This document shows, one piece after another, positions 40,061-53,134 of a stretch of DNA of 64,000 bases. Source of the stretch: an uncultured Caulobacteraceae bacterium (GTDB lineage: Bacteria; Pseudomonadota; Alphaproteobacteria; Caulobacterales; Caulobacteraceae); NCBI GenBank assembly GCA_937138625.1, contig CAKZPF010000004.1, forward strand, positions 124,001-188,000, in the 5' to 3' direction. The translations under genes and the position numbers were made by a program. The notes under the pieces are model-generated. The model was given only the letters and a program-made list of their open reading frames with translations. It did not search any database and was not told the DNA's origin. Each line of letters opens with the position of its first letter. The first letter of the stretch is position 1.

Positions 40061-40153
40061 AGGGCGCACAAAATGCAAAAAATTCACGCACAAAGCGCCC
40101 TGCCCGTTGGACATAAAGCCAACCAGAAAACAGACCCTTAAGAGAAAAAGAAA

Positions 40154-40527
<374 letters not shown>

Positions 40528-45300: not shown

Positions 45301-45699
45301 ATGAAATTTCATCAAGCAACCCTTCCCGTATCGGATATCGGCCGCAGCCGAAAGTTTTATCTGGATTTGGGTCTGCAGTTGATCGTCGACAGTGATCACT
45401 ATTGCCGCTTTGCGGATCCCGACCACACGGGCACCCTGTCCATCGAACAGGGTGATGGGTCCGGTGATGGGCCTATTGGCACCGGTGCCATTATGTATTT
45501 CGAATACGAAAGCCCAAGCGCGCTGGATCAGGCCGTGCGGGATTTGACCGCCAAGGGCCTCGTGGTCTCAGCACCACAGGATCAACGCTGGTTGTGGCGG
45601 GAGGCCAAACTGCAAGACCCCGACGGTCACCCCATCAAGTTGTTTTACGCTGGCAAAAACCGCCTGAACCCGCCCTGGCGGGTGACTGAACCTCAGTAA
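45301..45699 (+). CDS. VOC-family (glyoxalase/dioxygenase fold) protein
   Basis: 132 residues from the ATG at 45301. N-terminal MKFHQATLPVSDIGRSRKFY and C-terminal LQDPDGHPIKLFYAGKNR are typical of single-module VOC proteins, which dimerise to build metal sites. The candidate metal ligands are His4 and the Glu/His near DPDGHP. The substrate cannot be inferred. No clear ribosome site; its 3' end overlaps the convergent gene at 45693 by seven bases. Confidence 0.78.
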   Translation: MKFHQATLPVSDIGRSRKFYLDLGLQLIVDSDHYCRFADPDHTGTLSIEQGDGSGDGPIGTGAIMYFEYESPSALDQAVRDLTAKGLVVSAPQDQRWLWREAKLQDPDGHPIKLFYAGKNRLNPPWRVTEPQ

Positions 45700-46757
45700 G
45701 AAACCGTCTCGTTTAAACGCACAACATGATCCCAGGTTTGGTATGGGTAATTGTCGGCATCGCTTTCACGGTCGTAGCCCTCAAACGGATAAAGCTCGGC
45801 GCGCATGGTTGTTGGCGAAATCATACCTGCATTCACCTTGGCCAGTAAAAGTTCAGGGTCTGACACCATTTTAAAGGTCATCACGCCATCGTCACCAAAA
45901 ATGCGGGGGTCACTCAGACATTCTGCCAAGGTCTTTCGCCCCGCCATATTAGCAGCCTCAAACGTGCCTTGTCCTTCGATCACATCATTGGCCGCGTGCA
46001 AGGCCCCCACCTCGATCACATACAGATACTGCTGGCCATCTTCCAGCGAGGCGCCGTCATGCTGGCAGATGTTGATGGCCATGCCCGCATCACGATAGGG
46101 AACCTGTTGGATAGCTCCATTCTCTTCGCGTATGGAATTGGTCGGTATTTCATCGATAAACACCACAGGCACACTGTATTTGGCACAATGGGCCAGTTTG
46201 TACATCAAGGCATCCGCGTCTTGCTTCAGTACCGCTGGGTTTAAGGTGTATTCGCCCTCATAGGCACGGTCATATGCGCTCTCTAGGCCCTCTTTGACCT
46301 TCTCGTAAGCATTTCGGATGTCGGGGCTAAGCTGCGACACATCACCTTTGGCCTCCAGCACCAAACTCAGTTCCTGGGGGCTCAGTTTGGCCACCTTCTT
46401 TGCCGGCCCCTTAAGATCATCGGCATCATATTCAAGGCATAAGGCGGGATTGTGTCCCTCCCCGCTCAGACGCGCTATCGCGTGCAGTGTCACCTCAGGC
46501 GGCATCAATTTGTGGGGATGCCCGATCGTTACCGCCCGCACCGAAGGACTGGCATCAACGGCTCGCACCAACAAATCGGCGGCAGCCGTCACCCCCAATG
46601 GCGACGCCGACAGCAAATCTTCCATGTCATAAACGCCATTTTGATTGACGTCTTGGACGGTAAACATGGGCTGTTGGGGCAACTCCTCAGCCAAGGCAAA
46701 ATCACCCGCTGACACGAACACAGGGGCGGTTGCCAACGGTGTGATGGGGGGGTTCAT
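45693..46757 (-). CDS. calcium-loop protein with possible ChaN/TIKI-like domain (tandem copy 2)
   Basis: 354 residues, paralogous along its length to the gene at 46779. N-terminal loop DVNQNGVYDMEDLL (about residues 38-51) is EF-hand/dockerin-like. The rest carries, in order, VTIGHPHK, NPALCLEYD, PVVFIDE, PYRDAGMAINICQ and YVIEVGALHAA. That order (His motif near the start, Glu in a CLEYD strand, R-D-x-x-MA, and a late G-x-x-H) recalls the ChaN/TIKI/erythromycin-esterase superfamily, but this is inference from motifs. No signal peptide. Lies 21 bases downstream of its paralogue. Function unknown. Confidence 0.7.
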   Translation of the reverse strand: MNPPITPLATAPVFVSAGDFALAEELPQQPMFTVQDVNQNGVYDMEDLLSASPLGVTAAADLLVRAVDASPSVRAVTIGHPHKLMPPEVTLHAIARLSGEGHNPALCLEYDADDLKGPAKKVAKLSPQELSLVLEAKGDVSQLSPDIRNAYEKVKEGLESAYDRAYEGEYTLNPAVLKQDADALMYKLAHCAKYSVPVVFIDEIPTNSIREENGAIQQVPYRDAGMAINICQHDGASLEDGQQYLYVIEVGALHAANDVIEGQGTFEAANMAGRKTLAECLSDPRIFGDDGVMTFKMVSDPELLLAKVNAGMISPTTMRAELYPFEGYDRESDADNYPYQTWDHVVRLNETVSY

Positions 46758-46778: not shown

Positions 46779-47831
46779 TTAATCTTGAAGCGGATTAACG
46801 AGATAGACATGCTCCCAGGTGCCAAAGGGGAAATTATCACTATCATCATTAGGGTCTTGGCCACGGAACGGATAAAGACTGACCTGCTTACCGCCCAGAT
46901 CAACCCGCCCGTCCGCAATTTGAGAGGGCGAAGTGGTAAAGTTGACGGATATGGTGCCCTCGTCGCCGTACAACACCTCAAGACACTGCGCCAAGGGCTT
47001 GTTGTCGGCATCCAGCGAGGCACTCTGAAAATTGTATTGCTCGGGCACGGCTTGGGTGGCGGCATGCACATATCCCGTATCGATGACATAGAAATACGGG
47101 GCCTCTCCGTTTTCCTCGGTCTCGGCGTCATGTTCACAGATGGCTTTGGCCATTTCGCCATCTCGATACGGCGTTTGCACCATGCCGGAAGACGTGCGCT
47201 GCAGATCGTTCGCCTCCAGATGATCTATAAATAGCACCGGTACATCATATAAGGCACCATAAGCCAATTTCATGAACAGTTTTTCCGACGTCACACGGGT
47301 TGTCTGCGTGTCAAAACTGGCATCCCCCCCGTTGATCTCCTCACGCATGGCCACATTGGCCTTATGGAGCTTGTCAAATACCTCTTGCAATTTCGGAGAA
47401 AGCCCAGTTGGCGTTCCACCGTTGGCAATGATGGCCTGCAGTTCATTTTCGGACAATTTGTTGATGCTTTTGACCGCCTGCTTGAAATACCGACCATCGT
47501 ACTCAAGGCATAGCGCTGGCCGCTGGCCCTGCCGGCGCAAGGCTTCCACAAAATTTACGATCACAACATCCGCGTCCAAGCCATGGGTGTTGCCAATGCA
47601 CATGGTGCGCGCATGGGGTTCGTTTTCCACAAGATTCAGAAGCTTTTCAATCGTTCGCGACAGGCCGCCATCTTCGGTGGCTTCGTAATCAGCCAGATCA
47701 TAAACGCCATTGCCGTTCACATCCTTAACCTCGGGATTCTTATCCTCGGGTTTTAACGTAAAGTCGGACGCAGCGGCCGACCCAGCAGAAACAGAGCTTA
47801 TCGGGTTTTGCCTGTGTTCAATCGTTGTCAT
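46779..47831 (-). CDS. calcium-loop protein with possible ChaN/TIKI-like domain (tandem copy 1)
   Basis: 350 residues; ATG with GGAG eight bases upstream. Loop DVNGNGVYDLADYE at about residues 38-51. Then MCIGNTHGLDADVV, RPALCLEYDGRYF, VPVLFIDHLEANDL, PYRDGEMAKAICEHD and YVIDTGYVHAA line up one for one with the downstream paralogue, so the two arose by tandem duplication. The conserved Thr-His-Gly, Glu, Arg-Asp and late His suggest a metal-dependent enzyme site. First gene of a two-gene transcription unit; the accessory region begins upstream of it. Confidence 0.7.
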   Translation of the reverse strand: MTTIEHRQNPISSVSAGSAAASDFTLKPEDKNPEVKDVNGNGVYDLADYEATEDGGLSRTIEKLLNLVENEPHARTMCIGNTHGLDADVVIVNFVEALRRQGQRPALCLEYDGRYFKQAVKSINKLSENELQAIIANGGTPTGLSPKLQEVFDKLHKANVAMREEINGGDASFDTQTTRVTSEKLFMKLAYGALYDVPVLFIDHLEANDLQRTSSGMVQTPYRDGEMAKAICEHDAETEENGEAPYFYVIDTGYVHAATQAVPEQYNFQSASLDADNKPLAQCLEVLYGDEGTISVNFTTSPSQIADGRVDLGGKQVSLYPFRGQDPNDDSDNFPFGTWEHVYLVNPLQD

Positions 47832-48037: not shown

Positions 48038-48099
48038 CGCGCCCTTGCGGAGGCGCGGAGCATAGTGAAGCTGCCGTGAGCGAAAAGAATGGTGGGCCT
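48038..48099 (+). repeat. dispersed repeat, copy 3
   Basis: 62 bases that match copy 4 (48206-48267) with one visible difference (TAGTG versus TAGCG), exactly 168 bases apart. The core GCGGAGGCGCGGAG with GCTGCCGTGAGCGAAAAG is shared with copies at 2193 and 6935. Confidence 0.8.
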
Positions 48100-48205: not shown

Positions 48206-48267
48206 CGCGCCCTTGCGGAGGCGCGGAGCATAGCGAAGCTGCCGTGAGCGAAAAGAATGGTGGGCCT
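48206..48267 (+). repeat. dispersed repeat, copy 4
   Basis: Near-identical direct duplicate of copy 3. It ends about 90 bases before the MobC gene and may mark the edge of the mobilizable element. Confidence 0.8.
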
Positions 48268-48333
48268 AACGAGAGAAAGCTCGAACCAGCTTTTTCAGGC
48301 GCTTGAGGAATGGGAACGCCATCTCGCATCGAT

Positions 48334-48348
48334 AGACGCTGAGCGTCT
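48334..48348. promoter_or_regulatory. inverted repeat before mobC; possible oriT or operator
   Basis: AGACGC-TGA-GCGTCT, a perfect six-base inverted repeat, lies 12 bases before the MobC start. Relaxase operons usually have their oriT and autoregulatory sites here. Which of the two this is, if either, cannot be told. Confidence 0.4.
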
Positions 48349-48359
48349 GGGGTGCGACC

Positions 48360-48785
48360 ATGATCAGCCCACGCCATGATTTCAATGCAGTAGCCGCTGA
48401 AGAGGTGGTGGAGAAAAAGGTGTATCCACCGCCTTTTTCGCTCCGTTTGACGCTTGAAGAACGCGCGCGGCTTGAAGCCGAAGCGGATGGAAAGCCGCTT
48501 GGCGCGTATATTCGTGAGCGTTTGCTCGGTGATGATGTCACCCCGCGTACGCGGCGCGGCAATAGCCCTGTGAAGGATAAAGAAGCGCTTGGCCGCGTCA
48601 TGGGCGCGCTTGGTGCATCGCGCCTCTCCGCAAATCTGAACCAGCTTGCAAGAGCCGTGAACACTGGCTCGCTGCCTGTCACGCCTGAAACCGAAGCAGA
48701 ATTACAGCAAGCCTGCCAAGAGGTCGCCCAGATGCGGGCCGATCTCCTGCGCGCCCTGGTTGGCGCAATGGATGACGGGCCATGA
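48360..48785 (+). CDS. mobC: MobC-like relaxosome accessory protein
   Basis: 141 residues. FSLRLTLEERARLEAEADGKPLGAYIRERLL is a ribbon-helix-helix-like DNA-binding segment, and LGASRLSANLNQLARAVNTG is the MobC-family signature. Such proteins open DNA at oriT for the relaxase and often repress their own operon. Overlaps the relaxase gene by four bases (ATGA). Composition is like that of the relaxase gene. Confidence 0.85.
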   Translation: MISPRHDFNAVAAEEVVEKKVYPPPFSLRLTLEERARLEAEADGKPLGAYIRERLLGDDVTPRTRRGNSPVKDKEALGRVMGALGASRLSANLNQLARAVNTGSLPVTPETEAELQQACQEVAQMRADLLRALVGAMDDGP

Positions 48786-50101
48786 TGCTCAAGGCCAAAG
48801 AGCGCGGGGACGCCCCGCAGCTCGCCCGCTATCTTTTGGATCAGCGGGACAATGATCATGTCGAGCTGCATGAGGTGCGTGGCTTTGTCAGCGATGACCT
48901 CGCTGCCGCGTTCGGCGAAGCCCATGCCATCGCGCAAGGGACGCGCTGCGAGAACTATATGTTCGCAATGTCCTTCAACCCGCCTGAAAATGAGAATGTC
49001 AGCATCGAAGCCTTTGAGAAAGCCATCGATCAGGTCGAGGAAAAGCTCGGCCTGAAAGGCCAGCCGCGCGCGGTTGTCTTTCATGAGAAAGACGGGCGGC
49101 GTCATGCCCATGCGGTTTGGTCTCGGATCGATGCCGAACGCATGCGCTCGATCAATATGAACCACTATAGAGCCAAGCTGCGCGACGTGTCGCGCGAGCT
49201 GTTTCTGGAGCACGGCTGGAACATGCCGCGCGGGCTGGAGGATCAGCGTTTGCGTGATCCGCTCAGCTTTACGCGTGCGGAGTGGCAACAGGCCAAGCGT
49301 ATCGGGGTTGATCCCAAAGAGCTGAAGGCTGTTTTCAAAAAGGCGTGGGAGTCTTCAGACAACCGCGCGGCCTTTGAACAAGCGCTCAAAGAGCGCGGAT
49401 TTGTACTTGCGCAAGGTGATCGGCGCGCCTTTGTCGCCGTTGATTATCGCGGCGAAGTCTATGGCATTGGCCGCAAAGCGGGCGTCAGGGCAAAAGAGGT
49501 GAATGCAAAGCTCGGCGATCCGAGCGAGCTGCCGTCCGTTGATACGGTGAAGGCTGAAATTGCGGCCCGCATGACGGGCAAGATCAGGGAATTCATTGAG
49601 CAGGCCGAACGCGATGCAAAGCGTCGCTCGGCATACATAGATTTCCGCAAAGCAGAAGTCGTCGGGCGTCATCAGGAAGAGCGCAGACAACTGACCGAGA
49701 TACAGGAAAAACGCTGGCAGGCGGAAACGCTTGCCCGCGCTGCGCGTCTGCCTAAAGGCATGTCGGGCATCTGGCATCGCCTGACGGGGCGCTATGCCAA
49801 GATCAAAGCGCAGAATGAAGCCGAAGCGATGGACTCGCTGCGCCGTGATCGCGCGGAAAAAGACAACATGATCTTTCGCCAGCTTGAAGAGCGGCAACGC
49901 CTCCAGCAGGAAATCAAGACGCAGCGCGAAGCGGCGCAGCAAGAGCTGCTTCAACTGCGCCAGGATGTGGCAGAGTACCTGACGCTGGACAATCACAGCC
50001 CAGATCACGATCAGAGCCACAAGCCGGAACATGATCACGACGGCGATCATGACGGGCCAAGGCCGCCGCGCCCAAGGCGCAGGCGTGGTTTTGAACCATA
50101 A
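48782..50101 (+). CDS. relaxase/mobilization nuclease
   Basis: 439 residues. The N-terminal nuclease domain has the histidine motif KDGRRHAHAVWSRID (about residues 102-116), the metal-binding HxH of relaxases of the MobP/VirD2-like group; the Tyr for strand transfer is probably near the N-terminus (ARYLLD). After residue 250 the chain is a long coiled coil (Glu/Arg/Gln) ending in an Asp/His-rich, then Arg-rich tail (DHDQSHKPEHDHDGDHD). It nicks oriT and leads the strand into the recipient. No conjugation (type IV secretion) genes are in view, so transfer would need a helper. Confidence 0.88.
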   Translation: MMLKAKERGDAPQLARYLLDQRDNDHVELHEVRGFVSDDLAAAFGEAHAIAQGTRCENYMFAMSFNPPENENVSIEAFEKAIDQVEEKLGLKGQPRAVVFHEKDGRRHAHAVWSRIDAERMRSINMNHYRAKLRDVSRELFLEHGWNMPRGLEDQRLRDPLSFTRAEWQQAKRIGVDPKELKAVFKKAWESSDNRAAFEQALKERGFVLAQGDRRAFVAVDYRGEVYGIGRKAGVRAKEVNAKLGDPSELPSVDTVKAEIAARMTGKIREFIEQAERDAKRRSAYIDFRKAEVVGRHQEERRQLTEIQEKRWQAETLARAARLPKGMSGIWHRLTGRYAKIKAQNEAEAMDSLRRDRAEKDNMIFRQLEERQRLQQEIKTQREAAQQELLQLRQDVAEYLTLDNHSPDHDQSHKPEHDHDGDHDGPRPPRPRRRRGFEP

Positions 50102-50307: not shown

Positions 50308-50374
50308 CCGAACCATCAGGCCTTCTATGGCCGATGATGTGTGCGTGAGGGCCGTAAGGCCCTGAATGGTTCGG
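50308..50374 (+). promoter_or_regulatory. structured leader before the small gene at 50402
   Basis: CCGAACCAT (50308-50316) pairs with ATGGTTCGG (50366-50374), extended by CAGG (50317-50320) with CCTG (50361-50364). Inside are GGCC-TTCTAT-GGCC (50319-50332) and, competing with the extension, AGGGCC-GTAA-GGCCCT (50348-50363). It ends 27 bases before the start codon, just ahead of the ribosome site. The remainder of 50131-50307 shows no gene. Confidence 0.5.
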
Positions 50375-50401
50375 GGCCTCCTGAAGCAAAAGGAGGATGA
50401 C

Positions 50402-50584
50402 ATGAAACTTGTCACACAATTTGAAGCAGCAAAACTCAGCACCGTGCAGCTTTACGGTCTGCGCAAAGAGGCGTTTCTTGCCTTCACGGCTGCGCCTCGT
50501 GACTCGCAAGATCAGCGCAAAGCGCTGGCATCGATGCGAGCCATCGAAAACGAGCTGGCCTATCGCGGGCCAGCTCTCTGCTAA
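50402..50584 (+). CDS. small orphan protein
   Basis: 60 residues (MKLVTQFEAAKLSTVQLYGL and on), with a very strong ribosome site (AAAAGGAGG, seven bases before ATG) and its own terminator. Predicted helical and soluble, with LRKEAFLAFTAAPRDSQDQ in the middle. No family recognised. The layout of structured leader, strong ribosome site and terminator suggests a well-expressed accessory factor of the element. Confidence 0.75.
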   Translation: MKLVTQFEAAKLSTVQLYGLRKEAFLAFTAAPRDSQDQRKALASMRAIENELAYRGPALC

Positions 50585-50934: not shown

Positions 50935-51849
50935 TTACGCGGCGACTCCCTGCTTTTGCTCTTCGGTTTGGGCTTTGGGCTGAAAGCTGTGCAAATAGTC
51001 TGCGGCCTTCTGGGCATAGGCTGCGGCGCTGAAGATTGCCCGCTTGTCGTCTTTCAAGACCTTGAGCCAGCTCTGGATATAGGCTGCGTGATCCGTGCCC
51101 GCTTCGGGTGTCAGGCCAAGATCGGCACAAAGAAACGCTGCGCCAAGTTCGGCAACAAGCTCTTCCCTTGCATAACCTTCATCGCCCCATGTCTTGCGCC
51201 CGAATTCACGGTCAAGGCGGCTCTTGTGCTTCGTCCAGTGTGTCAGCTCATGCGCCAAGGTCGCATAGTAGGCCTCGGGGCTGCGGAAACACTCAAAGAC
51301 AGGCATCTGCACATGATCGCTGCCGCCGCCGCAATAGAAGGCGCGATTGCCGCCATGCCGTAAGTCTGCGCCCGTTGCCGCAAAGAACGCTTCTGCATGT
51401 TCGATCCGCTGCGCGGGGTCGATGACAGGCTCGGGCTTGACATAGTAGCTCTCGGGCAAGCCCTCGATCTGATCCACGTTGAACACGGTGTAGGCCCTCA
51501 TGAACGGGATTTTCCGCTCTTCGGTCGCGCCGTTGTCCTGCTCTTCCGTCTTTGTGATGGTGTTGGCATAGACAACGCAATTACCGCGCTCGCCCTTGCG
51601 CACATGTGCGCCAAGCTCTTTGGCCTGCTTGAAGGTCATCCAAGTCGGCGAACAAAAGCCCGCTTCCATCGCCGCGCCCCAAAGCATGAGCACGTTGATT
51701 CCGCTGTATTCCTGCCCGTTGCGGCGCAAGGGCTTCAGAACGCGCCCGTCCATGTTGCCAGCACTCCACGGCTTCAGCCATGTAAGTTCGCCCTGCTCAA
51801 GATCGGCGATGATCTTGTCTGTAACTTTCTGATAGATATCTGTTTTCAT
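50935..51849 (-). CDS. ardC: ArdC-type antirestriction protein
   Basis: 304 residues from the ATG at 51847-51849 (MKTDIYQKVTDKII), with AGGAG upstream. The N-terminal ArdC/DUF1738 single-strand DNA-binding domain (about 1-125: YSGINVLMLWGAA, TWMTFKQAKELGAHVRKGE) is followed by a zincin-like domain with the HExxH motif (TLAHELTHWTKH) and a downstream Glu in REELVAELGAAFL. Family members coat or protect incoming single-stranded DNA against host restriction. That fits a mobilizable element, and here it shares the island with a type I restriction operon. Confidence 0.9.
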   Translation of the reverse strand: MKTDIYQKVTDKIIADLEQGELTWLKPWSAGNMDGRVLKPLRRNGQEYSGINVLMLWGAAMEAGFCSPTWMTFKQAKELGAHVRKGERGNCVVYANTITKTEEQDNGATEERKIPFMRAYTVFNVDQIEGLPESYYVKPEPVIDPAQRIEHAEAFFAATGADLRHGGNRAFYCGGGSDHVQMPVFECFRSPEAYYATLAHELTHWTKHKSRLDREFGRKTWGDEGYAREELVAELGAAFLCADLGLTPEAGTDHAAYIQSWLKVLKDDKRAIFSAAAYAQKAADYLHSFQPKAQTEEQKQGVAA

Positions 51850-51922
51850 TGGTCTTTTCTCCTTTTTGCTTAGTTGGTTGCGCATGCAACCGAACTAGGC
51901 CCGCGCCAATGAGCGGGGGGAG

Positions 51923-52040
51923 ACCGTCAAGACCGCAGACAGCGGAGGGGGATCACCCGTCCTGCACAAACGAAGTGCGGAAGGACGGGGAAACCGCTGG
52001 CTGCGCCCGATGCGAACGCGCAGGGCTTGGTCTTGATGGT
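51923..52040 (+). ncRNA. highly foldable RNA candidate
   Basis: Nearly every base is in a helix. A closing helix pairs ACCGTCAAGACC (51923-51934) with GGTCTTGATGGT (52029-52040), 12 pairs including one G-U. Inside, GCAG-A-CAGCGG (51935-51945) pairs with CCGCTG-G-CTGC (51994-52004), and encloses CCCGTCCT-GCAC (51956-51967) with GTGC (51975-51978), bulge GGA, AGGACGGG (51982-51989). A second arm, GCCC-GA-TGCG (52005-52014) with CGCA-GGGC (52019-52026), completes a three-way junction. The G-U pair would be C-A on the other strand, which favours the plus strand, and a terminator-like hairpin follows at 52045. If minus-strand, it would be the leader of ardC. I do not recognise a known family. Confidence 0.65.
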
Positions 52041-52044
52041 GGAT

Positions 52045-52064
52045 GGGGTCGCAGACCCCTCTTT
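52045..52064 (+). terminator. terminator-like hairpin after the RNA candidate
   Basis: GGGGTC-GCA-GACCCC then TCTTT. It starts four bases after the folded RNA candidate. Confidence 0.55.
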
Positions 52065-52187
52065 AAAAAGGAAAGGGTTCAGCGCATCAGGGCTGGCAAA
52101 AGCTATCGCGCATGGGATGGAAGCCGAATGGCCGAGACCACCATAGGCGGGCTCGGTTCACGACAGCCCGACCCGAAGGGGGGCGCT

Positions 52188-52232
52188 ATGAAGGTAGTTA
52201 GTGAGCGCCGCTTCACTTTATGGTTGCCTTGA
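52188..52232 (+). CDS. 14-residue leader-like mini-ORF
   Basis: ATG at 52188 behind a strong AAGGGGGG site; the peptide is MKVVSERRFTLWLP and then TGA. GGCGCT (52182-52187) pairs with AGCGCC (52204-52209), placing the start codon in a hairpin loop. It ends 101 bases before hamA; the bases between are AT-rich (TATATAGAATT near 52260) and probably hold the hamA promoter. Could be a regulatory leader peptide or chance. The longer frame that ends at the same stop (from 51849) runs through the RNA candidate and is not accepted. Confidence 0.4.
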   Translation: MKVVSERRFTLWLP

Positions 52233-52333
52233 TGCGAGCAAAAGGCGAATCTGATAAAGTATATAGAATTCAGAGACGTAAGGTCGGTAAGACATTTGGA
52301 ATAGAGGTTTCGTGAAAGGAATACGGAAGGAGC

Positions 52334-53134
52334 ATGTTGCCAGGAGTTCAGTTCGAAAAGAGTGCAGAGGGCTCTCTGTGTTTCATCATCGATGATATTT
52401 CCGATGAATTGAAAACGGTCATCCGCGAACGCCTTTCTGAGATATGCAACGGAGCAGCAAAAGCGTCACGAAATTCTGTTCTGTACTCTTATCAGAAAAC
52501 TCTGAACACGTTCTTTCAAAAATTCGACCCAAAGTCCCCAGATATTCAAAAAGGAATGATAGGTGAACTGCTTACTCATGTACTCTTCTTGCATTACGAA
52601 GACGGCTTTCGCGCGGCTTCTCCGTACTTCAACATGGAAGAAGACTCGATTAAAAAGGGCTTTGACCTAGTCTTGCATCACAAAGCCACGAGCGAAATCT
52701 GGTTTGTCGAAGTCAAGGCAGGCGAGTGCGGACTAGAAACGAGCATTAACAAGCTGGGCAGTCTTCTATCACTTGCAAAGAATGGGCTCAAAACCGCACT
52801 GAGCAGTGATAGAAATACACTTTGGCAAAACGCTGTTAACGGCGCCAGCCTAGTCATCAATGATACGGGCCTCAAGACACAAGTTGAAACGCTCCTTGAA
52901 AGTTACAACGAGAAAGCTTTGAGCGGCGGTTCAATAAGCACTGACTATAACGCCGTTTTGGTTGCCGTGTGTTTTTCGGGGACTCAGGCTTTTGCCACCG
53001 GAGCAGAGTTTGATGCCAGACACCAAACACAAAAAGGCATGAACGAGTTTAAAGATTTGATGTCGATCGCGCTGCAGAAGAACACCATCCAACGTGTCAT
53101 AGATTTCCTAAGAAGCGAGATCGACGATGTCTAA
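52334..53134 (+). CDS. hamA: HamA-like nuclease of Hachiman defence (DUF1837)
   Basis: 266 residues, ATG with GGAAGGAG four bases upstream. The middle holds the DUF1837 pattern: GMIGELLTHVLFLHYEDGF, then KKGFDLVLHH and SEIWFVEVKAGE, giving the Glu, Asp and ExK residues of a PD-(D/E)xK-type nuclease site. In Hachiman, HamA is the effector nuclease held in check by the HamB helicase until phage DNA is sensed. It overlaps the helicase gene by eight bases. More AT-rich than the chromosomal flank, as expected for an acquired defence gene. Confidence 0.82.
   Translation: MLPGVQFEKSAEGSLCFIIDDISDELKTVIRERLSEICNGAAKASRNSVLYSYQKTLNTFFQKFDPKSPDIQKGMIGELLTHVLFLHYEDGFRAASPYFNMEEDSIKKGFDLVLHHKATSEIWFVEVKAGECGLETSINKLGSLLSLAKNGLKTALSSDRNTLWQNAVNGASLVINDTGLKTQVETLLESYNEKALSGGSISTDYNAVLVAVCFSGTQAFATGAEFDARHQTQKGMNEFKDLMSIALQKNTIQRVIDFLRSEIDDV

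Follow-up and report, generated by a model that had tools for sequence, protein, structure and literature searches.

What is the almost fully base-paired segment of 118 nucleotides that separates ardC from the Hachiman genes in this alphaproteobacterial genome, and does it act as RNA or as DNA? A first-pass annotation of the window, i.e., of the whole stretch of 64,000 nucleotides analysed here, had described it as a three-way junction made of a 12-pair closing helix, a long interrupted arm and a second arm, and had taken it for a plus-strand RNA. This architecture was confirmed by folding (Table 1), including the single G-U (in DNA, G.T) pair of the closing helix, and the minimum free energy (MFE) amounts to -66.0 kcal/mol. 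That the complementarity exceeds chance was also correct, the z-score being -6.47 with none of 200 shuffled sequences equally stable, and the junction folded together with its flanks has a z-score of -5.49. The hairpin that directly follows the junction is present as well, but it is not terminator-like: no terminator-like site was found in 51840-52340, and an intrinsic terminator at the element, that is a GC-rich hairpin followed by a T run, was rejected.

Table 1. Features of the element and of its surroundings, in coordinates of the window.
Feature	Position	Strand	Basis
Candidate oriT region	48268..48345		conserved block in relatives of the island, upstream of mobC
mobC-like gene	48360-48785	+	NikA-like 4.9e-07; MobC 1.3e-04, below its cut-off
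Relaxase gene	48782-50101	+	Relaxase 1.4e-16
ardC (anti-restriction, ssDNA-binding, zincin domain)	50935..51849	-	Pfam
Two gene-proximal hairpins, ardC-to-junction interval	51876..51919 (51876-51891, 51900-51919)	+	fold; relatives' sequences
Three-way junction	51923..52040	+	fold, homologous copies, core-arm covariation, closing-helix test
Closing helix, 12 pairs including one G.T	51923-51934 with 52029-52040	+	fold
Conserved core matched by covariance model R1	51934..52006	+	87 bits in the window
Core arm (long interrupted arm)	51935-52004	+	fold and covariation
Second arm	52005-52026	+	fold
Hairpin 3' of the junction, not terminator-like	52045..52059	+	fold, terminator scan
Domain D (second covarying structure)	52107..52187	+	likeness to the domain beside Frpo positions of F-type plasmids

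The fold is under selection, and its closing helix is more loosely kept than its core arm. In 17 homologous sequences, the core arm shows 72 cells changed on both sides of a pair, whereas shuffles give 25.9 +/- 3.9 and a slid-partner control gives no more than 23, so that this arm is kept in homologues by compensatory changes of the kind that had been asked of a genuine structure. Over the same sequences 86.7% of the cells of the named core structure are paired, and the small apical helix of the arm is poorly kept (54%). For the closing helix, an exact-run test on 33 divergent copies gave a mean longest run of 6.42, against 5.83 +/- 0.16 with permuted flanks and a maximum of 6.45 in 5000 permutations; taken singly, seven of the 33 copies exceed 95% of flank swaps, and a duplex-energy test was weak, the own flank ranking best in two of the 33. 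Hairpins analogous to the gene-proximal pair recur in many relatives, as judged by sequence comparison. In four copies (L009, L011, L014, and L015), the core arm carries an apical-loop insert of about 25-30 nt of unrelated sequence.

The hairpin cluster before ardC represents a single copy of a DNA element that is widespread on plasmids. The alignment of copies reveals an invariant core motif, GGAGGGGGATC(A/G)CCC..CCTGCA ... GGAAGG..GGGGA.ACC, around which the sequence of the stem varies while its pairing is retained. Of 21 distinct copies, 17 went into the covariance model R1, those with the long apical insert being omitted. BLAST found copies on alphaproteobacterial plasmids, often several per plasmid. 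R1 has a single match in the window's genome, which is counted among the 13 of 385 genomes of the class with matches at E <= 1e-4 and among the 11 of 398 genomes of the phylum with matches at E <= 1e-5. The exact 23-base core pattern is present in at least 120 stretches of genome contigs; among the 120 matches listed, about 109 are alphaproteobacterial, judging titles by eye, and the other 11 belong to Thiothrix, Pseudomonas, Pseudoxanthomonas, Methylumidiphilus, Microbulbifer, three metagenome-assembled genomes of Chlorobiaceae or Saprospiraceae, and one unspecified proteobacterium. In viral contigs the same pattern matched once (L165 2219-2241), beside a long opposite-strand ORF at 84-2120, and this contig may be a plasmid filed as viral. 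A BLAST search of 50,697 phage records yielded three matches, each covering 26-29% of the query, of which two are unannotated faecal records (E 2e-5 and 7e-5). The proposed comparison with Rfam led to no family: at gathering score or permissively, release 15 gave for the window only unrelated families and chance scores, and the same holds for six loci of relatives at gathering score and for one copy permissively.

The copies share a position relative to genes. The likely start of ardC, read from the sequence, is the ATG at 51849, which has a ribosome-binding site and lies 85 nt from the core; its Pfam matches (ArdcN, 2.1e-43; MPTase-PolyVal, 5.5e-54) were obtained on a longer frame from 51885. 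On 16 annotated plasmid stretches, whose feature tables were judged by eye, R1 has 40 matches, and in 34 of them the start of an opposite-strand gene is found 50-201 nt from the R1 edge (77-111 nt in 26 of these). Two of the remaining six overlap the annotated start of an opposite-strand gene, one (L006 32) is at the end of its stretch, and three (one in L021, and L003 12050 and 7902) have no annotated opposite-strand gene within 250 nt. An ORF survey used 121 of the 127 distinct copies, six being dropped as too close to a stretch end. In 61 of the 121, the longest opposite-strand ORF among those starting 30-260 nt away has its start at 80-99 nt. Of these longest ORFs 69% reach at least 200 aa, compared with 33% for random positions and 24% for the far side of the element. 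Among the 121 proteins, with redundancy kept, Pfam recognized ArdcN (26), MPTase-PolyVal (24), DUF932 (16), HTH_ParB (15), ArdA (7), DUF3768 (7), ParB_N (4), and N6_N4_Mtase (3), and NCBIfam models of ParB type matched 34. Anti-restriction genes, methylases and SSBs are reported from leading regions (PMC11541004), and the F-like locus L019 carries DUF932, psiA, psiB, and ssb. Seen from the side of ardC, in a sample chosen independently of the element (30 loci, from 32 places in 24 of 240 alphaproteobacterial genomes), the core stands 85-117 nt upstream of the ardC match in six loci, the window's included and two at only 32 bits, and is absent from the other 24. It is also absent from all 11 ardC relatives examined on viral contigs.

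Mismatches within the stems bear on which strand is folded. At twelve stem positions of 39 non-redundant copies, 45 G.T and 10 A.C combinations were counted on the element's own strand, and the observed-to-expected ratios against column shuffles are 0.66 for G.T, 0.25 for A.C, and 0.40 for other mismatches. The count had been made first on all 127 copies (44 G.T and 14 A.C at ten lower-stem positions, 78 and 3 at two middle-helix positions), and the effect is weaker, although still present, in the non-redundant set. Preference for G.T over A.C is moderate, and the plus strand is the preferred one. In 32 tRNAs from stretches of the same genome, the corresponding ratios are 0.55 for G.T and 0.01 for other mismatches, the latter comparison being partly confounded by stem register slips. 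Since this spectrum differs from that of the element, the element does not resemble a classical RNA, and the excess of G.T on its own strand speaks against folding as part of the downstream gene's mRNA. The choice of the plus strand in the first-pass annotation is thus favoured, while its RNA label finds no support. With RNA parameters, the MFE of the plus strand is the lower one in 44 of 49 copies; this comparison was dropped, because dinucleotide shuffles reproduce it. A linear sigma-70 scan found no -35/-10 match on either strand of the window and is uninformative, because an F-like control region likewise yields none.

The strand of the element can be related to conjugative transfer where a nic site is present. 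Among 12 regions examined in front of mobilization genes, six have an RP4-like nic, TATCCTG^C, which lies on the other strand from the genes. In MOBP systems, the transferred strand runs 3'-ward from nic. With the strand assigned by this polarity, 15 of the 18 elements on the six nic-bearing plasmids are on the transferred strand: both copies in each of L166, L167, and L168, and three of four in each of L003, L174, and pMM1 (L004 and L170), with the proviso that L003 and L174 are related and their counts not independent. The three wrong-strand copies are not explained by a single-stranded DNA (ssDNA) model. Those at L003 7902-7974 (-) and L174 15965-16038 (-) are corresponding copies beside mobC, and that at L170 29244-29318 (-) is on the lagging side; the copies of L174 and L170 stand 111 and 92 nt before a gene. 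The possibility that the element is itself an oriT was rejected, as a plasmid may carry as many as four copies, most of them kilobases away from nic. On the nic-bearing plasmids the relaxase genes are across nic from the elements; in the window, mobC and the relaxase gene lie between the candidate oriT and the element.

The island of the window is organized as mobC-like gene, relaxase gene, ardC in reverse orientation, element, and then cargo. The first four components are common to the window and to L158, L002, L077, and L151, and L065, which begins inside the relaxase gene, has ardC and the element. The cargo differs between relatives: in the window it consists of Hachiman (HamB, 1.1e-75; HamA weak, 7.5e-4 in PADLOC and, in Pfam, below the cut-off) and of the type I restriction genes hsdR and hsdS, and in L002 of a nuclease-helicase, SIR2-HerA, and a type I system. 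Scanning the window for the nic pattern gave no site near mobC, and the conserved block upstream of mobC does not reveal which strand is nicked in this island family. For the element to be on the transferred strand here, the plus strand would have to lead, in which case mobC and the relaxase gene would enter earlier; we infer that the plus strand of this island is the one transferred first. Other observations on the region are a 72-aa ORF at 50366-50584 between the relaxase gene and ardC, which has no Pfam match and is shared with L002, with an inverted repeat before it in both; 62-nt direct repeats, 98% identical, at 48038-48099 and 48206-48267, a few hundred bases upstream of mobC; and two adjacent, similar-looking ORFs at 45693-46757 (354 aa) and 46779-47831 (350 aa), with EF-hand-like stretches by eye and, for the former, no Pfam match. 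The window also has ordinary RNA genes, namely an alphaproteobacterial permuted tmRNA at 1684-2055 and RNase P RNA at 40153-40527.

A connection with enterobacterial plasmids is provided by domain D. It hits 3,160 plasmid records, for the most part from conjugative and enterobacterial plasmids; taken singly, each hit is weak (about 75% over 80 nt, E about 3e-3). Its alignment comprises 22 sequences, four of them gammaproteobacterial, from 24 pattern hits, L006 and L125 having been dropped by eye for lacking the rest of the domain; 10 of its 22 predicted pairs have compensatory changes, and a pair of its closing helix differs in a compensatory manner between E. coli and alphaproteobacteria. In pO26-L (L017) and pKP1034 (L019), a match is found upstream of ssb, which is where PMC9849209 places Frpo2. 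L019 has a second match, on the DUF932 side, in a unit that by analogy would be at the Frpo1 position; its two units are 98% identical over 621 bp, and in the fold of the corresponding L017 region a hairpin of about 320 nt precedes domain D. The units of L017 and L019 are putative Frpo, identified by position alone and not by comparison with published Frpo sequences. The 118-nt structure thus occupies the place of the Frpo hairpin of F-type plasmids, beside a similar domain. The core itself is unrelated to Frpo by model search, R1 having no match in the F-type loci L005, L017, and L019, and domain D is perhaps a distinct family of its own. A strict domain D pattern was found within 330 nt of 23 of 119 core copies and in none of the left-side controls, which means that most copies have no domain D or a divergent form. 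With domain D of pKF715A as query, BLAST found 41 nt of an IncN plasmid (E 8e-4), about 500 nt before ccgD, as well as another MOBF plasmid of E. coli and a Burkholderia plasmid; these three matches are weaker and were not recovered by the domain D pattern.

These features invite comparison with the ssDNA promoters of enterobacterial plasmids, F and ColIb-P9 among them, for which PMC9849209 and PMC7736820 report tests. Like the Frpo and ssi sites of those plasmids, as they are described in PMC9849209, PMC7736820, and PMC3817090, the members of the family are structured elements of the leading region, are on the transferred strand for most copies of the nic-bearing plasmids, are upstream of early anti-defence or establishment genes reading toward oriT, and occur in several copies per plasmid; in the window, the adjoining domain D adds to the likeness. 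In contrast, the core hairpin differs from Frpo in sequence and architecture, no -35/-10 boxes were identified in it, and its activity is predicted. The Frpo' and Frpo* of Samuel et al. (2024; PMC11541004) are likewise computed ssDNA-promoter candidates upstream of leading-region genes, but the search for them required -35/-10 boxes, and they can be compared with the core family by description only. Among the matched open-text papers that name both Frpo and an ssDNA promoter, none mentions alphaproteobacteria.

Transferred ssDNA accounts for the strand, position and distribution of the element better than an RNA does. It most likely represents, for alphaproteobacteria, a variant of the ssDNA promoters known from leading regions, the case being good, not decisive. 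More specifically, we consider it probable, at about two chances in three (0.66), that the element acts in the manner of Frpo, as an ssDNA promoter or priming site by which ardC is turned on at entry, and RNA synthesis would then begin from it. On arrival of the mobilizable island, or of a plasmid with a relative of the element, as a single strand in a recipient, this strand would fold into the three-way junction and its companion hairpins, and the folded DNA would recruit a transcription machinery, either a plasmid primase or, as at Frpo, the RNA polymerase of the host. RNA would be started toward the 5' end of the transferred strand, so that ardC, templated by that strand, could be made before second-strand synthesis and protect the incoming DNA from restriction. 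This RNA might also serve as primer for the second strand, and conversion to duplex would dissolve the structure and shut expression off. According to PMC7213743, the ArdC protein of R388 is required in the recipient and not in the donor, which fits expression of ardC at entry. The suggestion of the first-pass annotation that the structure might be part of an anti-defence switch is in keeping with its distance from the likely ardC start.

Among the alternatives, the element might be no more than an ssi site, the folded transferred strand recruiting a primase for the second strand with no role in gene expression. The evidence from strand and position would be the same, several element-bearing plasmids have primase or toprim genes, and Frpo too makes primer RNA (PMC7736820); a near-fixed distance before start codons, and before several genes per plasmid, is however needless for priming, and this explanation appears unlikely. 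A duplex operator or cruciform recognized by a plasmid repressor, as in CUP-type leading regions, has very little probability. CUP elements of the IncN leading region are regarded as repressor-controlled duplex promoters; there too a conserved element is repeated before several leading-region genes, which recalls the many copies found here before genes of one functional class, and the short domain D match stands before ccgD of an IncN plasmid. Stem sequences that vary while pairing is retained are not what an operator predicts, nor would the G.T strand asymmetry be expected for a duplex.

The two RNA readings account less well for these data. A minus-strand 5' leader of ardC and of the other genes, acting as an attenuator or regulatory leader, would also be conserved 85-110 nt before start codons, and hairpins just before the start codon recur; the leader would, however, carry the G.T pairs as A.C mismatches, the opposite of what is counted on the element's strand, and no match to a double-stranded promoter is found upstream, so that the leader on the other strand, one of the possibilities raised initially, fits poorly and is quite improbable. 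A plus-strand small RNA agrees with the G.T preference and with the strong covariation. On the other hand, it would have neither a promoter-like nor a terminator-like site, T runs to the right of the element are not in excess (13 of 127 copies, versus 124 of 635 random windows), the copies are antisense to the nearby gene, and the mismatches are unlike those of tRNA stems; like the duplex operator, it seems highly improbable.

Beyond the ssDNA promoter reading itself, it can be proposed, tentatively and at somewhat less than even odds, that a second, unrelated lineage of ssDNA promoters, characterized by an invariant internal-loop motif rather than by rebuilt -35/-10 boxes, governs the anti-defence genes of conjugative and mobilizable elements of alphaproteobacteria, and that domain D is an older module which these elements have in common with F-type plasmids. 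If this is true, the existence of a second family, recognizable by its sequence signature, would point to early expression of anti-defence genes from incoming ssDNA as a general phenomenon. R1 or the 23-base pattern would provide a searchable marker of alphaproteobacterial leading regions, and the genes behind the element, such as those for DUF932, DUF3768, DUF4942, DUF6884, and ParB-like proteins, would be flagged as likely establishment or anti-defence genes. By the same reading, mobilizable defence islands, here one with Hachiman and type I restriction-modification genes, would bring along an anti-restriction switch of their own for the entry phase.
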